Shown in pieces: positions 42,194-49,341 of a stretch of 64,000 nt of DNA. Position 1 is the first letter of the stretch; each line of letters opens with the position of its first letter. Source of the DNA: Muribaculaceae bacterium (lineage in GTDB: Bacteria > Bacteroidota > Bacteroidia > Bacteroidales > Muribaculaceae). Made by a program: the position numbers and the translations under genes. The DNA lies in the NCBI GenBank assembly GCA_017391675.1, contig JAFOXR010000029.1:1-64000 (forward strand), given 5' to 3'. Below the pieces are notes generated by a model that worked only from the letters and a program-made list of their open reading frames with translations, did no database searches and was not told where the DNA came from.

Positions 42194-42238
42194 AATAAAA
42201 AACAGAAAATTCCGTTTAAATAAAAAATAATAATGTGT

Positions 42239-43051
42239 ATGAGAAAAAAAGCAATATATACAATAGCCATAATAGCAATGTCATGGCTTTTTATGGTGTC
42301 ATGTTCATCGTCAAAAGAGAGTCTTACTTATTTTGAAAATGCCGACAGTCTTTCGGCTGAAGGAATAGGAAGCAATAAGTACGGCATCAAAATTGTGCCT
42401 GATGACGAATTGAAGATTGTTGTGACATCACAAGTGCCAGAAGCAACAGCTGCTTATAATCTGCCGCTAGCTAATTATGCCGACAGGACTAAGCTGGAGT
42501 CTACATCGACACAATCATTGCAAACCTATGTGGTAGATAAGAAAGGATATATTATGATGCCAGTGTTGGGAAAAGTGCATGTGGCAGGAAAAACTAACGA
42601 CGAAATAACTGACTATCTTACAGAACAGATTGCAAAAGATGTAACCGATCCATATGTTAGCGTGAGATTGCATACATTCAAGGTGAATGTGCTGGGTGAG
42701 GTAGAGAATCCAGGTGTTGTGGCGGTTAAGACCGAGAGATTCTCGGTACTTGATGCCTTGGCTGCTGCCAATGATATGACTGAATATGGTAAGCGTGATA
42801 ATGTGTTGATTATCCGTGAGGAAAATGGCGTGAAGAAATATGTGAGACTTAACCTGAATGATGTGAAGGTTCTTGAATCTCCATATTTTTATCTGCAGCA
42901 GAATGATGTGGTTTATGTAGAGCCTAATAAAATCAGAAAAGCAAATTCTAAGTTTAATCAGAATAATTCATATAAGTTGAGTGTTGTGTCAACAATTGTG
43001 AGTGCATGTTCTGTAATAGCGTCACTTATAATAGCGCTTCTCGTAAAATGA
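42239..43051 (+). CDS. Wza-like polysaccharide export lipoprotein
   Basis: A 270-residue outer-membrane polysaccharide export protein. The N-terminus is a lipoprotein signal ending in MVSC (lipobox Cys near 23). A polysaccharide export domain follows (about 45-150, YGIKIVPDDELKIVVTSQV, VDKKGYIMMPVLGKVHVAG), then an SLBB-type domain (about 155-235, FKVNVLGEVENPGVVAV). The C-terminus ends with a hydrophobic helix (VVSTIVSACSVIASLIIALLV). The start could instead be the ATG two codons upstream at 42233. It would form the outer-membrane channel working with the Wzz-like protein two genes on. Confidence 0.88.
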   Translation: MRKKAIYTIAIIAMSWLFMVSCSSSKESLTYFENADSLSAEGIGSNKYGIKIVPDDELKIVVTSQVPEATAAYNLPLANYADRTKLESTSTQSLQTYVVDKKGYIMMPVLGKVHVAGKTNDEITDYLTEQIAKDVTDPYVSVRLHTFKVNVLGEVENPGVVAVKTERFSVLDALAAANDMTEYGKRDNVLIIREENGVKKYVRLNLNDVKVLESPYFYLQQNDVVYVEPNKIRKANSKFNQNNSYKLSVVSTIVSACSVIASLIIALLVK

Positions 43052-43069: not shown

Positions 43070-44350
43070 GTGTTAAGTATAAATAAGACATATTGCTGGC
43101 TATTTGTAATAGCGATATTGATACAGATTCCAAATGTTCATTTCGTCAAGTTTGCCGATGAATTGCTGGTTGCCTTGATGACGTGTCTTGTAGGGCTTGA
43201 CATGCTGATAAATCATCAACTTAAGAAGTATAAGCTGCTATGGATAATAGCTGGCATAATGGCAATTTATGCGTTGTATTCGGTGGTGTTCATGTCCTAT
43301 AACACTCCAGTTGCTGTCGTTCATGACTATATAGCTCAGATGAAGCCTTTCTGTTATTTCTGCATAAGCTATGCAATCGTGCCCAAGTTTGATGCTTCAA
43401 TGAGAAATATAGCTAAAGGTGCATGTATACTTAATTCAGCTATTGCATTGGTGTGTGTGATCACAGGAACCGTACAGACGGTGTTTTTTCATGTTTCTTA
43501 TATGGGACTGGTGTCAATGATTTCATTTCTTGTTTACCTGTTCTGTTCGACCGATGAGAATGGGAAAGTTGAAAAGACCGATTTGATGATATCAGTGGCA
43601 ATGCTTACGATTGGGCTTGCCAGTACACGCTCAAAGTTCTATGGGGAATATGTGATGGCGTTATATATGCTATTTATGTATACTCCTGGATTTGCAAAGA
43701 ATATAAAACTAAAGCACGTTCTGGCTTTTGTTTTTGCTGCTGCAATGGTAGTTGTCGTGGCTTGGGGCAAAATAGAGTATTATTTCTTGGCTGAAGCGGC
43801 GGATATGGAGTTTGATGAGGAGGCGATGCAAACGATAGCGCGCCCTATGCTCTATGCAGGAATGGCTATGCTTCTTGCCTTGCACCCTCTTTTGGGTAGT
43901 GGATTGGCTTCATTTGCAACCAATGCATCATCAACAGCTGTAAATTATTCCGAGGCGTATAGAACCATAGGTTTAGATAGCGTATGGGGCTTGTCACCAT
44001 CATTTGATTCATTTATTTGTGATGCATTTTATCCTAGTTTGGCTCAATTTGGCCTGGTTGGGATAGGCTTGTTTGTGTATTTTTTCGTGTGGATATATAA
44101 GAGGCTTAGTCTTGTCCTACGATTACAAGGCAAAGTCTATTATTTGATAGGAGTCATGTCTATTGTTGTAGTGCTTATAGAGAGTGTTGCAGCAACGACA
44201 TTTAATCAAGGAGCAGGAGCTATGTGCATGATGATATTAGGCTGCATAGTTTCTTCATTTAGGGCAAGAACCAAGAAAGAACGGGAAGATATATTAATGA
44301 TGCCGTATAAAGATACTGCAGCATTGCTATACATTAGAAATGAAAAATAA
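43070..44350 (+). CDS. Wzy-like polysaccharide polymerase / O-antigen ligase family membrane protein
   Basis: A 426-residue protein with about ten to eleven hydrophobic helices and a large loop (about 240-325) between late helices, with PLLGSGLASFATNAS and an Arg/Asp-containing stretch. The architecture is that of Wzy polymerases and WaaL ligases. No ATG lies near the beginning; the start is a GTG at 43070, 19 bases after the export gene stop. The context (export protein before, chain-length protein after) favours a polymerase. Specific residues cannot be assigned. Confidence 0.75.
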   Translation: MLSINKTYCWLFVIAILIQIPNVHFVKFADELLVALMTCLVGLDMLINHQLKKYKLLWIIAGIMAIYALYSVVFMSYNTPVAVVHDYIAQMKPFCYFCISYAIVPKFDASMRNIAKGACILNSAIALVCVITGTVQTVFFHVSYMGLVSMISFLVYLFCSTDENGKVEKTDLMISVAMLTIGLASTRSKFYGEYVMALYMLFMYTPGFAKNIKLKHVLAFVFAAAMVVVVAWGKIEYYFLAEAADMEFDEEAMQTIARPMLYAGMAMLLALHPLLGSGLASFATNASSTAVNYSEAYRTIGLDSVWGLSPSFDSFICDAFYPSLAQFGLVGIGLFVYFFVWIYKRLSLVLRLQGKVYYLIGVMSIVVVLIESVAATTFNQGAGAMCMMILGCIVSSFRARTKKEREDILMMPYKDTAALLYIRNEK

Positions 44351-44358
44351 TATTAGAT

Positions 44359-45933
44359 ATGGAAAATGATAAAATCGACTTGAGGAAATATATCAATGCA
44401 GTAAAGCGCAAATGGTATTGGGGCGTAGCTGTATTTGTATTGGTAATGGGTATGGCTATTACTTATTGTGTCGTGAAAATGCCGCAATACATGTCATATT
44501 CAATGATGCTAATAGAAGCCGATTCTGACGATGGCGCAAAATCCATGGGAGGAATGCTTGGACTTATGAAATCATTCTCAATAGGTGGTTTCGGAAGTGC
44601 ATCTATTGATAACGAGTTGCTTATCCTTCAGTCTCATGCAGTAAAGAAAGAAATGATAAACAGATTGGGACTGAATAGGGTATATGTAGAACGGAATGGA
44701 TTGCAAAAGACACTTCTGTATAAGAATTCACCAGTGCTGCTAGAAGCACCAAGCGAACTGTTTGATACATTGCAGTATGGTTTTAAGGTTCGTGTGAAAT
44801 TAAAGAAAGGAGTTGCCGACATAAAAGCTACTAAAGGTCTTTTAGGAACTGTAATAGCTTCAAAGCAGGGCGCAACATTGCCTTGTACATTGAATACGCC
44901 TTATGGAGATTTCCAGGTACTGAAAACAAGTGAATATAACGCAGAAGATGAGCGTACTATAGATGTTGTAGTTCAAGGCAACGATATGGCGGTAGACGGA
45001 TTTGGTAAGAAAGTCCTTGAAATAGCTTATGCCAATAAGAAATCGGACGGTATTGTGCTTGAGATTCTTGACCCAAGCAAGGAGCGTGGACGGGATATTC
45101 TTAATACATTGATGTCTCTATATAATGAACGCCGTAGAGATCGCCGAAACGAGCGGGCTATTGCTGATGCTCAGTTCCTTGAAGAAAGAATTGCTTCATT
45201 GGGAGCAGAATTGGCTGAGTCGGAAAAGGAAATAGAAAAATTCAAGAAAGATGCTAATATCATAAGCGTAGAACCTGAAGCAACGCTATTGTTCACTCAA
45301 GATGTTGAAACTGATAATATGCTGCTTGCGTTACAGGTAGAGGAAATGACTCTTAATTCTATGCTTGAACAGCTGAATGATCCTCAAAAGCGCTATTCTC
45401 TTATACCTATGTCCGAAAGTTTAGGTGATGCAAATGCTGCTGCAGTGATTGAAAATTATAACGATTTGCTTCTTAGCAGAATGGCGATGAAGTCATCGGC
45501 AAAAGAAGGTAATATAGCATTGAAACAACTTACCGAACAGATCGATGCGGTGCGTGAAAGTGCCATTGAGAATGTGAAGAGACTTCAGAATCAATGGGAA
45601 ATAAAGTACAATAGATTCAAGAAGGAAAGCGGCAAGTATAAAAACCGTATAGGCTCTTTGCCACAATATGAACGAGAACTGGTAGACTTGACAAGAGATA
45701 GAGAACTGAAGAATACTTTGTATATGTTTTTGCTTGAAAAACGCGAAAGTGCGTTGTTGAAGCAGAACAATTCACAGGAACTCGGTTTCGTGTTTGAACC
45801 GGCATATTCAGCTATAAAGTCAAGCAAGACAAAACTTTACCTAATCTTGGGGTTGGGATTTGCTGCAGCTGTTGTATCTGGAATTGTCTTGTCTATGATA
45901 ATTGGTTTAAGAAAGAAAAGTGACACCAATTAA
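44359..45933 (+). CDS. Wzz/GumC-like chain-length determinant
   Basis: A 524-residue inner-membrane protein of the polysaccharide co-polymerase class. An N-terminal cytoplasmic segment (DKIDLRKYINAVKRKWYW) leads into helix 1 (about 20-42). A long periplasmic coiled coil covers about 270-440 (ADAQFLEERIASLGAELAESEKEIEKF). The last helix is at about 495-517 (LYLILGLGFAAAVVSGIVLSMIIG). No fused tyrosine kinase domain, so phosphorylation control is not encoded here. It would set chain length and span to the Wza-like pore. Confidence 0.88.
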   Translation: MENDKIDLRKYINAVKRKWYWGVAVFVLVMGMAITYCVVKMPQYMSYSMMLIEADSDDGAKSMGGMLGLMKSFSIGGFGSASIDNELLILQSHAVKKEMINRLGLNRVYVERNGLQKTLLYKNSPVLLEAPSELFDTLQYGFKVRVKLKKGVADIKATKGLLGTVIASKQGATLPCTLNTPYGDFQVLKTSEYNAEDERTIDVVVQGNDMAVDGFGKKVLEIAYANKKSDGIVLEILDPSKERGRDILNTLMSLYNERRRDRRNERAIADAQFLEERIASLGAELAESEKEIEKFKKDANIISVEPEATLLFTQDVETDNMLLALQVEEMTLNSMLEQLNDPQKRYSLIPMSESLGDANAAAVIENYNDLLLSRMAMKSSAKEGNIALKQLTEQIDAVRESAIENVKRLQNQWEIKYNRFKKESGKYKNRIGSLPQYERELVDLTRDRELKNTLYMFLLEKRESALLKQNNSQELGFVFEPAYSAIKSSKTKLYLILGLGFAAAVVSGIVLSMIIGLRKKSDTN

Positions 45934-45935
45934 GT

Positions 45936-47153
45936 ATGGTTATGAGTAAGAGGGTATTGATAGTAAATAAGTTCTATTATGCGCGTGGTGGTGACTGCGT
46001 GTGTACTCTTAATCTTGAGAAACTTTTAAAGGCTCAAGGTTGGGAAGTGGCTGTATATGCTATGAAATATCCTGAGAATCTCTCAAGCGAGTGGTCAAGC
46101 TATTTTGCCGAGGAAATTTCTTTCTCGGGTGGTGTTGGCGAAAAGGTGAGGGCTGCTAAGCGATTGCTTGGCTATGGGGACATAAAGGCTTCATTCAAGA
46201 AGATTCTGGAAGACTTCAAGCCTTCTATTGTACATTTGCAGAACATTCATAGCTACTTGTCTCCAATAATAGCTAAAATGGCAAAAGACTGCGGTTGCCG
46301 TGTGGTGTGGACTTTGCATGACTATAAGCTGTTGTGCCCATCATACTCCTGCTTGAGAGATGGCAAGCCATGCGAGTTGTGCTTTACTGATAAAAGTAAT
46401 GTGATAAAGTACCGTTGCATGAAAAATAGCATGGTCGCAAGTGTCTTGGGGTACATGGAAGCTGTGAAATGGAATAAAGACTGGCTAGAGCGCTATGTAG
46501 ATGCTTTTGTGTGTCCTAGTGCATTCATGGCGCAGAAGATGGCGCAAGGAGGCTTTGATAAGACTAAACTTCATGTGATATGTAATTTCTTGGATCCGAT
46601 AAAACTGCAAGTCCTTAAAGAACAGCAGGCTCAGAGAGAAAAGACATATTTGTATATAGGACGCTTGTCGCATGAAAAAGGAGTAGGAACATTGCTTGAA
46701 GTAGCAAAGACTTTGCCGTTCAAGTTAAAGATTGCAGGTGGAGGTCCTTTATCGGAACAGTTCAAAGAAGAATATAAGGGCTATGGTCAAATAGAGTTCC
46801 TCGGTCATCAGAATGCAGAACAGGTGAGCAAATTGCTGTCGCAGGCAACTTTTGCTGTAGTCCCTTCTGAATGGTATGAGAATAATCCGTTAAGCGTGAT
46901 TGAGTCGCTATGTGCCGGTACGCCGGTAGTGGGCGCTAATATAGGAGGTATCCCAGAATTGATAGATAATGGCGATACTGGTTACATTTTCGAGTCGGGA
47001 AATTCCGCTCAGTTGCGAGAATGCATTGAGAACGCATTTTCTCAGCAATGGGATTATGATAAAATAAAAATGCTATCTTTGTGCAGATTTTCTCAAGAAA
47101 AGCATTATGCTTTGCTTGAGAAGGTGTATGGACAACAACTTATTGTTGAATGA
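45936..47153 (+). CDS. Family 4 glycosyltransferase (GT-B fold)
   Basis: A 405-residue cytoplasmic retaining glycosyltransferase. The N-terminal half has VLIVNKFYYARGGDCVCTLNLEKLL, HLQNIHSYLSPIIA and the DYKLLCPSYSCLRDGKPCELC cysteine cluster often seen in GT4 enzymes. The C-terminal half has YIGRLSHEKGVGTLLEVAK and the donor-binding EX7E region EWYENNPLSVIESLCAGTPVV. The start may be the second ATG at 45942. It begins two bases after the Wzz-like stop. Sugar donor unknown. Confidence 0.88.
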   Translation: MVMSKRVLIVNKFYYARGGDCVCTLNLEKLLKAQGWEVAVYAMKYPENLSSEWSSYFAEEISFSGGVGEKVRAAKRLLGYGDIKASFKKILEDFKPSIVHLQNIHSYLSPIIAKMAKDCGCRVVWTLHDYKLLCPSYSCLRDGKPCELCFTDKSNVIKYRCMKNSMVASVLGYMEAVKWNKDWLERYVDAFVCPSAFMAQKMAQGGFDKTKLHVICNFLDPIKLQVLKEQQAQREKTYLYIGRLSHEKGVGTLLEVAKTLPFKLKIAGGGPLSEQFKEEYKGYGQIEFLGHQNAEQVSKLLSQATFAVVPSEWYENNPLSVIESLCAGTPVVGANIGGIPELIDNGDTGYIFESGNSAQLRECIENAFSQQWDYDKIKMLSLCRFSQEKHYALLEKVYGQQLIVE

Positions 47154-47165
47154 AAAAATTAAGAA

Positions 47166-48227
47166 ATGGCAAGTAGAATACCAACAGATGCTTCAATAAT
47201 ATTGACTTACCGCTGCCCTATGCAGTGCAAGATGTGCAATATATGGAAGTATCCAACCGATATCAAGAAAGAGATTCAGGCAGAGGAGCTAAAGTGTCTG
47301 CCTAAACTTAAATTCATAAATCTTACAGGCGGCGAACCATTTATAAGAGAGGACCTGGAAGAAATTGTGAAGGTCTGTTATACTAAGTCCCCTCGAATCG
47401 TGATATCAACATCGGGTTGGTTTGAAGATAGGGTAATAGACCTGGCTAAGAAGTTCCCTAATATAGGTATCCGTATTTCTATAGAGGGCTTATCGGAAAA
47501 GAATGATGAGCTTAGAGGCCGTCAAGGAGGCTTTGACAAAGGTTTGCGCACATTGTTGAAGTTAAAGGAAATGGGCGTTAAGGACATAGGCTTCGGTTGT
47601 ACTGTGAGCAATAATAATAGCAAGGACATGCTGTCGTTATATCAATTGTCTAAGTCGCTTGGGCTAGAGTTTGCTACAGCGTCGTTCCATAACTCATATT
47701 ATTTCCACAAAGACGATAATGTGATAACCAATCAAGCCGAAGTGTGTGATGACTTTAAGACCTTGATAGAATGGCAATTGAAAGAAAATCATCCTAAATC
47801 ATGGTTCAGAGCTTATTTTAATATGGGCTTGATAAACTATATAGAAGGAAATAGGAGAATGCTGCCATGCGAAGCCGGTTCTATTAATTTCTTCATCGAT
47901 CCTTATGGTGATGTGTATCCTTGCAATGGTATGGAAGAAAAGTACTGGAAGGGTACGATGGGCAACATTCGTGAAACAAAGGATTTCATGGAACTGTGGA
48001 ACAGCGAACAGGCAGAGCGCGTGCGTGCAAATGTGCGCAAGTGCCCAAAGAATTGCTGGATGGTAGGTACGGCTTCTCCTGTGATGTATAAGTATATTAT
48101 TCACCCTGCAAAATGGGTTTTGAAGAATAAATTGCGTTCAATGATGGGCAAACCCATCTGCTTGGATAAAAAATGGTGCGATGTAGGACAGGATCCGAGT
48201 CAAGGCGATATGCGGGAGGTATTCTGA
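47166..48227 (+). CDS. Radical SAM/SPASM protein in polysaccharide locus
   Basis: A 353-residue radical SAM enzyme. The cluster motif is CPMQCKMC with Cys17, Cys21 and Cys24 (CxxxCxxC), followed by FINLTGGEPFIRED, the SAM-binding GGEP motif. A C-terminal SPASM-like region has CEAGSINFFIDPYGDVYPCNG (about 237-257) and CPKNCW (about 297-302) for auxiliary iron-sulfur ligands. It sits between two glycosyltransferase genes with 12- and 19-base gaps, so it is surely co-transcribed. Likely roles are radical chemistry on a nucleotide sugar or lipid-linked glycan, or modification of a peptide encoded elsewhere. No precursor peptide is visible next to it. Confidence 0.85.
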   Translation: MASRIPTDASIILTYRCPMQCKMCNIWKYPTDIKKEIQAEELKCLPKLKFINLTGGEPFIREDLEEIVKVCYTKSPRIVISTSGWFEDRVIDLAKKFPNIGIRISIEGLSEKNDELRGRQGGFDKGLRTLLKLKEMGVKDIGFGCTVSNNNSKDMLSLYQLSKSLGLEFATASFHNSYYFHKDDNVITNQAEVCDDFKTLIEWQLKENHPKSWFRAYFNMGLINYIEGNRRMLPCEAGSINFFIDPYGDVYPCNGMEEKYWKGTMGNIRETKDFMELWNSEQAERVRANVRKCPKNCWMVGTASPVMYKYIIHPAKWVLKNKLRSMMGKPICLDKKWCDVGQDPSQGDMREVF

Positions 48228-48246: not shown

Positions 48247-49341
48247 ATGAAGGTAGTAGTAATCGGGACAAGAGGAATTCCTAACATACAAGGAGGAGTG
48301 GAAACCCATTGCGAGGAACTGTATCCGCGCTTGGCGAAAATGGGTTGCGATATTACTATTATGCGCCGTTCCTGCTATATTGCAGAAAATAATAAGATAA
48401 ACGATTATAAAGGTGTGCACTTGAAAGATGTGTACGCTCCTCATAAGAAATCACTTGAAGCAATCGTGCATTCGATGCTTTGTGTGATAAAAGCCCGCAT
48501 GCTTAACCCCGATGTTGTCCATGTTCATGCCATAGGCCCCGGACTTTGTATCCCATTTGCGCGACTGTTAGGGCTGAGAGTGGTTAGTACCAATCACGGA
48601 CCTGATTATGACAGGAAAAAGTGGGGCAAACTGGCGAAGTCAATGCTTAAGCTAGGCGAGTGGTGCCAAGCAAAATTCAGCAATGAAGTGATTGTGATTT
48701 CAAAGGTAATTGCCAATATTCTGGAAACGAATTATGGCCGTGCAAATACCCAGCTCGTTTTTAATGGAGTGACACCGCCTGTAAAGGCCACAACTCAGGA
48801 TTATATAAACTCGCTTGGTCTAGAACCGAAGAAATATGTTTTGGGATTAGGCCGTTTTGTGGAAGAGAAGAATTTTCATCAATTGATAGAAGCGTGGAAT
48901 AAACTCAGCGATAAGCATGGCTTTAAACTGGTAATTGCTGGTGATGCCGACCATGAAGATGATTATTCTCGTCGATTGAAACAGCTTGCTAAAGAAAGTG
49001 GCGTTGTCTTGACAGGATTTATAAAAGGTGAGAAACTAAATGAAATACTCACTCATGCGGGATTGTTCATTTTGCCGTCATCGCATGAAGGCTTGCCTAT
49101 CTCATTGCTTGAGGCTATGAGTTATAATCTTGATTCGCTAGTGAGTGATATACCTGCCAATAAGATACCAAGTTTAAGTGAAGATGATTTCTTCCACTGC
49201 GGTGATATAGATGATTTGTGCTTGAAGATAAAGCAGAAACTGGACAACTTGAAACTGGGAAGAGAGTATGACTTGTCTTTGTATAACTGGGACAATATAG
49301 CACTCCAAACGCTAGAAGTTTACAATACAGCTTGTAAGTAA
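48247..49341 (+). CDS. Family 4 glycosyltransferase, DUF1972-type
   Basis: A 364-residue GT-B enzyme. The start KVVVIGTRGIPNIQGGVETHCEEL is the DUF1972/rhamnosyltransferase-type N-terminus. Then VHVHAIGPGLCIPFARLLG, a donor domain with VLGLGRFVEEKNFHQLIEAW, and the EX7E-type motif PSSHEGLPISLLEAMSYN. Last gene of the polysaccharide operon before a convergent terminator. Similar proteins transfer rhamnose or other hexoses; the donor here is not known. Confidence 0.88.
   Translation: MKVVVIGTRGIPNIQGGVETHCEELYPRLAKMGCDITIMRRSCYIAENNKINDYKGVHLKDVYAPHKKSLEAIVHSMLCVIKARMLNPDVVHVHAIGPGLCIPFARLLGLRVVSTNHGPDYDRKKWGKLAKSMLKLGEWCQAKFSNEVIVISKVIANILETNYGRANTQLVFNGVTPPVKATTQDYINSLGLEPKKYVLGLGRFVEEKNFHQLIEAWNKLSDKHGFKLVIAGDADHEDDYSRRLKQLAKESGVVLTGFIKGEKLNEILTHAGLFILPSSHEGLPISLLEAMSYNLDSLVSDIPANKIPSLSEDDFFHCGDIDDLCLKIKQKLDNLKLGREYDLSLYNWDNIALQTLEVYNTACK

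Follow-up and report, generated by a model that had tools for sequence, protein, structure and literature searches.

Among radical SAM (rSAM) enzymes, the SPASM domain is described as carrying seven cysteines for two clusters, in the arrangement CX9-15GX4C-gap-CX2CX5CX3C-gap-C (PMC6231123), and the twitch domain as its truncated, one-cluster version (PMC6231123, PMC9012708). BtrN, the 2-deoxy-scyllo-inosamine dehydrogenase of the butirosin pathway, is described as a twitch enzyme that oxidizes an amino-cyclitol (PMC9012708, PMC6231123); its cluster is reported to be ligated by four cysteines and has been proposed as the electron acceptor in the oxidation of the alcohol (PMC9012708). BlsE, a cytosylglucuronate decarboxylase, is reported to decarboxylate a glucuronosyl nucleoside and hence to act on a nucleoside-attached sugar (PMC3715490), while NeoN, the neomycin C epimerase, is described as working on an assembled oligosaccharide-like molecule with a cysteine as its hydrogen donor (PMC10991966). 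On the peptide side, the sactipeptide maturase SkfB is described as having a twitch-type C-terminal domain and a fused N-terminal peptide-recognition domain. With respect to surface glycans, CjjRM3420_1449 of Campylobacter jejuni HS:19 is listed as an rSAM gene in a methylation/capsule biosynthesis cluster, adjoining a glycosyltransferase gene (PMC8743553); it is known as an annotation only, and we liken it to the gene studied here by context and not by sequence. Thus, sugar-acting twitch enzymes are known, and antibiotic pathways are known to include rSAM enzymes that modify sugars, whereas the literature searched describes none in the assembly of cell-surface polysaccharides. The same search, to which subscription journals were mostly inaccessible, found no description of the rSAM family presented below.

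The gene in question lies at 47166..48227, on the forward strand, in a 64,000-nucleotide stretch of a Muribaculaceae bacterium genome (GCA_017391675.1, contig JAFOXR010000029.1, positions 1 to 64,000; hereafter the window). Its product of 353 aa is predicted, from Pfam matches, 80 relatives and an AlphaFold2 model, to be a twitch-type enzyme with one auxiliary cluster. The surrounding operon, all of it on the same strand, starts with a Wza-type polysaccharide export lipoprotein (42233..43051; Poly_export, PF02563, 62.3 bits and SLBB_2, 37.5 bits, both above cut-off). This is followed by a membrane protein resembling Wzy and O-antigen ligases, which we tentatively regard as a putative polymerase (43070..44350; Wzy_C, PF04932, 20.8 bits, under the cut-off of 31.7, and no NCBIfam match), and by a Wzz-type chain-length determinant (44359..45933; PF02706, 29.6 bits, cut-off 25.5). 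The rSAM gene is flanked by two genes for GT4 glycosyltransferases, GT4A on its 5' side (45936..47153; PF00534, 107.5 bits and PF13439, 59.6 bits) and GT4B on its 3' side (48247..49341; PF00534, 85.9 bits), the latter with a DUF1972-type N-terminal half (39.2 bits); in both, matches to GT4 families exceed their cut-offs. A first-pass annotation of this DNA had placed the rSAM ORF between two GT4 genes with gaps of 12 and 19 bases, which is exact, and had assigned it to an exopolysaccharide operon, which fits the window inasmuch as the Wza and Wzz components of a Wzx/Wzy-type locus both exceed their cut-offs, the Wzy-like protein falling below its own. An initiating glycosyl-phosphotransferase was not among the operon genes scanned with Pfam, but is encoded elsewhere in the genome, which has four PF02397 matches, one of them a short fragment.

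The membership of the protein in the radical SAM superfamily is supported by a Radical_SAM match (PF04055, 60.6 bits, cut-off 29.5), by the fold comparisons given below and by two motifs that the first-pass annotation had also read correctly. One of these is the CxxxCxxC of the radical SAM cluster (C17, C21 and C24; 47214..47237, forward strand), present in all 87 sequences of our cysteine alignment, from which the rows L082, L100 and L103 were left out. The other is GGEP (residues 55-58; 47328..47339, forward strand), whose G55, G56, E57 and P58 do not vary across alignment A2, with its 15 rows (13 distinct). The C-terminal region has a four-cysteine domain, the predicted site of the auxiliary cluster (C235, C253, C293 and C297; 47868..48056, forward strand), which coincides with a PF13186 match; the window's own genome, at 93% completeness, has no other match to this model. 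C235, C253 and C293 are each found in 87/87 sequences and C297 in 86/87, the remaining one being an unread X, and their spacing, C-x17-C-x(35-39)-C-x3-C, holds in 15 rows (13 distinct). Other C-terminal cysteines vary (C332 in 72/87, C338 in 36/87), and so do the non-ligand cysteines generally, the best kept of which, C145 (79/87), is followed by C71 (74/87) and the aforementioned C332, with none invariant. These four conserved cysteines point to a single auxiliary cluster rather than to the seven-cysteine SPASM motif, which the family lacks. The earlier label of SPASM enzyme therefore stands only as far as the Pfam SPASM model goes, which scores 45 bits against a cut-off of 21.5; on cysteine count and similarity the protein looks like a twitch-type enzyme and is better called one. 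No NCBIfam model exceeds its cut-off among the 25 matches listed (of 48), which include those for PTO1314, mycofactocin, NirJ, HpnH, PapB, SkfB and PqqE. The best-scoring curated model among them, TIGR03961 (rSAM_PTO1314), covers residues 5-299 with 84.7 bits, far under its cut-off of 306.05. By these models, the family appears to be an unnamed one.

The AlphaFold2 model of the protein (mean pLDDT 88.7, pTM 0.88, with 68 of 81 sequences used) was compared with solved structures. BlsE is the top match (Z 23.9 over 292 residues, rmsd 3.2), followed by SkfB (22.4), SuiB (21.0) and MoaA (19.4), with BtrN at Z 14.8 (217 residues, rmsd 3.0). We rejected an assignment of function by fold, since BlsE, SkfB, SuiB and MoaA all score high and the fold cannot separate sugar from peptide substrates. 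By sequence, the best match in the PDB is SkfB (E 5.6e-15). In contrast, when the PDB was searched with a profile of the auxiliary domain, BtrN came first, if weakly (E 7e-4, domain i-Evalue 0.004). When that domain was searched as a single sequence instead, BtrN was not listed, and the relationship of the auxiliary domain to that of BtrN is therefore suggestive. The two enzymes have in common a radical SAM core, a domain with four cysteine ligands and a C-x17-C spacing at the first pair. They differ in that BtrN is described as acting in an antibiotic pathway on a free amino-cyclitol, whereas the window's enzyme is encoded in polysaccharide loci and its sequence similarity to BtrN is weak.

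Relatives of the protein are encoded by 204/226 pattern-matching stretches of genome contigs, indicating that the ORF does not arise by chance, and the best 80 of the 204 are 75-87% identical to it. The phyletic distribution is patchy: the gene was detected in 25/295 of the Bacteroidales genomes sampled and in 2/296 genomes of a sample of the phylum, the window's own genome included (E<=1e-30). Within the window's own family it is present in 41/99 genomes, of which 32 have it at 68% identity or more and 9 near 42%. A scan of viral contigs with alignment A1 found no relative. One locus, L113, has in addition to its full-length copy (L113:8681-9811) a 75-aa fragment, similar to the N-terminal part of the enzyme, about 1 kb upstream (L113:7487-7714).

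The most constant companion of the rSAM gene is GT4B, a homologue of which lies within 1.2 kb downstream in 68/78 of the relatives that have a following gene. Across the 295 Bacteroidales genomes, with limits of E<=1e-20 for rSAM and E<=1e-70 for GT4B, 23 have both genes, 2 rSAM only, 3 GT4B only and 267 neither. Fisher's test, treating the genomes as independent, gives p 7e-29, a value that is no more than indicative as the genomes are related. The two genes are at most 300 bases apart in 19/23 of the genomes that have both, and in the two rSAM-only genomes an adjacent but more distant GT4B, of 31-33% identity, is found. GT4A is a looser associate: among the 75 relatives with enough upstream sequence, a homologue is directly upstream in 42, further upstream in 12 and was not found in 21. 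The pairing extends to divergent members of the family, with a 48% relative (L105) showing the order GT4A-rSAM-GT4B and a 41% relative (L110) rSAM-GT4B. Strains of Tannerella forsythia (L054, L061) likewise have the GT4A-rSAM-GT4B unit, at 75% identity. In all 22 other genomes having both genes, the only ones compared in this respect, the rSAM protein is closer to the window's than GT4B is. The median identities to the window's proteins are 79 for rSAM, 58 for GT4B and 52 for GT4A, figures that are biased by the loci having been fetched by rSAM similarity.

The remainder of the window's operon is less constant. Homologues of its Wza, Wzy and Wzz occur in 15, 18 and 22 of 80 loci, respectively, and elsewhere the unit is found either in larger glycan loci or alone amid genes that, judged by eye on the first part of their translations, resemble housekeeping genes (L034, L055 and L112, as well as L058, which has a different GT4 upstream). 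Given that the surroundings vary from locus to locus, the conserved entity is, as judged from gene neighbourhoods, an rSAM-GT4B unit, usually with GT4A upstream, which is not bound to one type of exopolysaccharide operon. Conservation of the GT4-rSAM-GT4 order, at issue in the first-pass annotation, thus holds for GT4B and usually for GT4A, but direct adjacency of GT4A is confined to little over half of the loci and the unit also occurs outside recognizable exopolysaccharide operons. As for the glycosyltransferase itself, no PDB match to GT4B reached E<=1e-10, so that naming it by a solved relative was rejected, as was its identification as the rhamnosyltransferase Cps2T (64.8 bits, cut-off 500); on account of both we claim no donor sugar for it.

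We also found relatives in 2/72,556 plasmid records, one from Segatella copri (55% identity; L118:11983-13194) and one from Pseudobutyrivibrio xylanivorans, a member of the Lachnospiraceae in the phylum Bacillota (53%; L119:11983-13155). The S. copri gene lies in the order GT, rSAM, GT4. Its Pseudobutyrivibrio counterpart is located among acyltransferase, pyruvyltransferase and glycosyltransferase genes with no close GT4B alongside, the best GT4B match being 26% identical. Between the two plasmid genes, identity is 85% at the protein level and 76% at the DNA level over the gene, yet across the 25-kb stretches compared their flanks share only one further DNA match, of 96 bases. Such nearly unrelated flanks around similar genes fit a movement of the rSAM gene between Bacteroidota and Bacillota independently of its neighbours.

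The position of the unit in the pathway is suggested by WcaJ-type genes. We inspected four copies of GT4B that have no rSAM gene next to them, and in 2/4 a WcaJ-type initiating enzyme, a glucose phosphotransferase, directly follows GT4B. Both cases (G438 and G325, the latter with its rSAM gene on another contig) come from one genus, which counts against the placement. The other two genomes have no rSAM match; in one (G514) no WcaJ gene was seen beside GT4B, and in the other (G532) none was seen before the contig ends there. In the locus L079, rSAM and GT4B are followed by the start of a CoA_binding_3-domain (WcaJ-type) protein, cut by the end of the contig. The occurrence of WcaJ-type genes next to GT4B suggests that GT4B acts on Und-PP-glucose, with the rSAM enzyme near that step, and that GT4B, and the rSAM enzyme with it, may work early in repeat-unit assembly. 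The window's genome itself encodes a WcaJ equivalog (L156:7985-9364 on G000:C8; 454.9 bits, cut-off 410.75), which by eye stands apart from polysaccharide genes other than an acyltransferase-like one two genes away.

Taken with the tie to GT4B in both neighbourhood and presence/absence, these observations lead us to propose that the rSAM protein is a twitch-type enzyme that alters one sugar during surface polysaccharide assembly, a reading to which we assign a probability of about 0.68. Radical chemistry on a glycan, as the first-pass annotation had it, is retained in this proposal, although the exopolysaccharide operon has turned out not to be a fixed context. The substrate is probably a sugar of the repeat unit; whether the enzyme would take it on the lipid carrier or as a nucleotide sugar we regard as evenly poised. 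A C-terminal helix (residues 312-326) that had been considered as a membrane-binding element is not strongly amphipathic (moment 0.40, mean hydrophobicity -0.11, charge +4, with other helices scoring higher), and was for this reason dropped as evidence for a lipid-linked substrate. Under the proposed mechanism, a WcaJ-type transferase encoded at another genomic locus would load glucose-1-phosphate onto undecaprenyl phosphate, GT4B would add the next sugar after glucose, and GT4A would usually add another. The 5'-deoxyadenosyl radical of the rSAM enzyme would then abstract a hydrogen atom from a single carbon of a sugar, the four-cysteine auxiliary cluster would accept the second electron to give an oxidized (keto) sugar or a derivative of it, and Wzy, Wzz and Wza would polymerize and export the modified chain. 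By analogy with BtrN, the four-cysteine cluster favours such a two-electron oxidation, which we put forward tentatively, at somewhat less than even odds. Decarboxylation or another cleavage, epimerization, and a chemistry outside all of these are each unlikely. Counting against a keto-sugar product, the conserved unit contains no ketoreductase or aminotransferase; counting against the action on a sugar as such, the peptide-modifying SkfB and SuiB reach Z scores nearly as high as that of BlsE, and SkfB is the best match by sequence.

A radical epimerase, inverting one sugar carbon in the chain to yield an L-type or other rare sugar much as NeoN does on neomycin C, is improbable in our estimation. 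Epimerases of the rSAM type with oligosaccharide-like substrates do exist, as exemplified by NeoN (PMC10991966) and apparently by AviX12, which we know from a reference title in PMC8326336. NeoN, which we compared by description and not by sequence, is nevertheless reported to depend on its cysteine hydrogen donor, whereas the present family has no invariant cysteine beyond the seven predicted cluster ligands, which makes epimerization less likely. Further, no glycan structure is tied to any carrier of the rSAM gene, and Butyrivibrio fibrisolvens belongs to a genus other than Pseudobutyrivibrio.

We give little credence to a RiPP-type peptide maturase with its precursor elsewhere, whose presence in glycan loci would reflect glycosylation of the peptide or its export along with them. 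Such a role would accord with SkfB being the closest PDB relative by sequence, with weak matches to several NCBIfam peptide-maturase models and with a membrane-type micro-ORF of 34-36 aa beside GT4B in 16/81 family loci and on the S. copri plasmid. Against it, we compared 841 small intergenic ORFs (20-90 aa) lying no more than 5 kb from the rSAM gene in 81 loci and found no family-wide precursor among them. The widest family covers 11 of the 81 loci and is the micro-ORF itself, which lies on the other strand and for which tblastn gave no match in the window. Unlike SkfB, moreover, the enzyme has no fused recognition domain, with its first core strand at residues 8-14 of the AlphaFold2 model and just two Pfam domains. 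With neither a shared precursor nearby nor such a domain, a peptide substrate is unlikely. The remark in the first-pass annotation that no precursor ORF is seen nearby is borne out across these loci, and in the neighbourhoods searched the relatives do not occur mainly beside peptide precursors.

The micro-ORF encodes a hydrophobic product with no Pfam match, on the strand opposite the operon and next to where GT4B starts (e.g. L118:13198-13305 and L022:2970-3077, both on the minus strand), and 14 of its 17 matches begin with ATG. Across 13 copies the differences fall 1054/773/1657 by codon position, the third-position excess typical of coding sequence, and upstream of many copies is a TTTGC-like promoter element, as in the Bacteroidales promoter consensus. 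A search of 198 Bacteroidales genomes with the 36-aa query found nothing, the query being too short for this to weigh much.

A BlsE-like removal of a carboxyl group or cleavage of a sugar side chain finds some backing in the top Z score of BlsE and in its reported decarboxylation of a sugar, but is improbable, as BlsE aligns by sequence only in the core (profile positions 15-164), the lead in Z over SkfB is 1.5 and the second-cluster motif proposed by its authors, C317xC319xxC322, does not resemble the four-cysteine pattern of this family. BlsE itself belongs to an antibiotic pathway.

Returning to the alteration of a sugar during polysaccharide assembly, a bolder form of this proposal, which we consider doubtful, would make this the first rSAM family to tailor an undecaprenyl-attached sugar early in assembly, with GT4B and rSAM forming a portable add-then-modify unit that is shuffled among glycan loci and phyla, and makes keto or inverted (L-type) sugars beyond the reach of nucleotide-sugar enzymes. 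The rSAM-GT4B pair offers a clear and testable target. If the proposed role is true, radical chemistry would contribute to the diversity of gut bacterial glycans in commensal Bacteroidales through this pairing of an rSAM enzyme with a glycosyltransferase, and predictions of glycan composition from nucleotide-sugar genes would miss such diversity.
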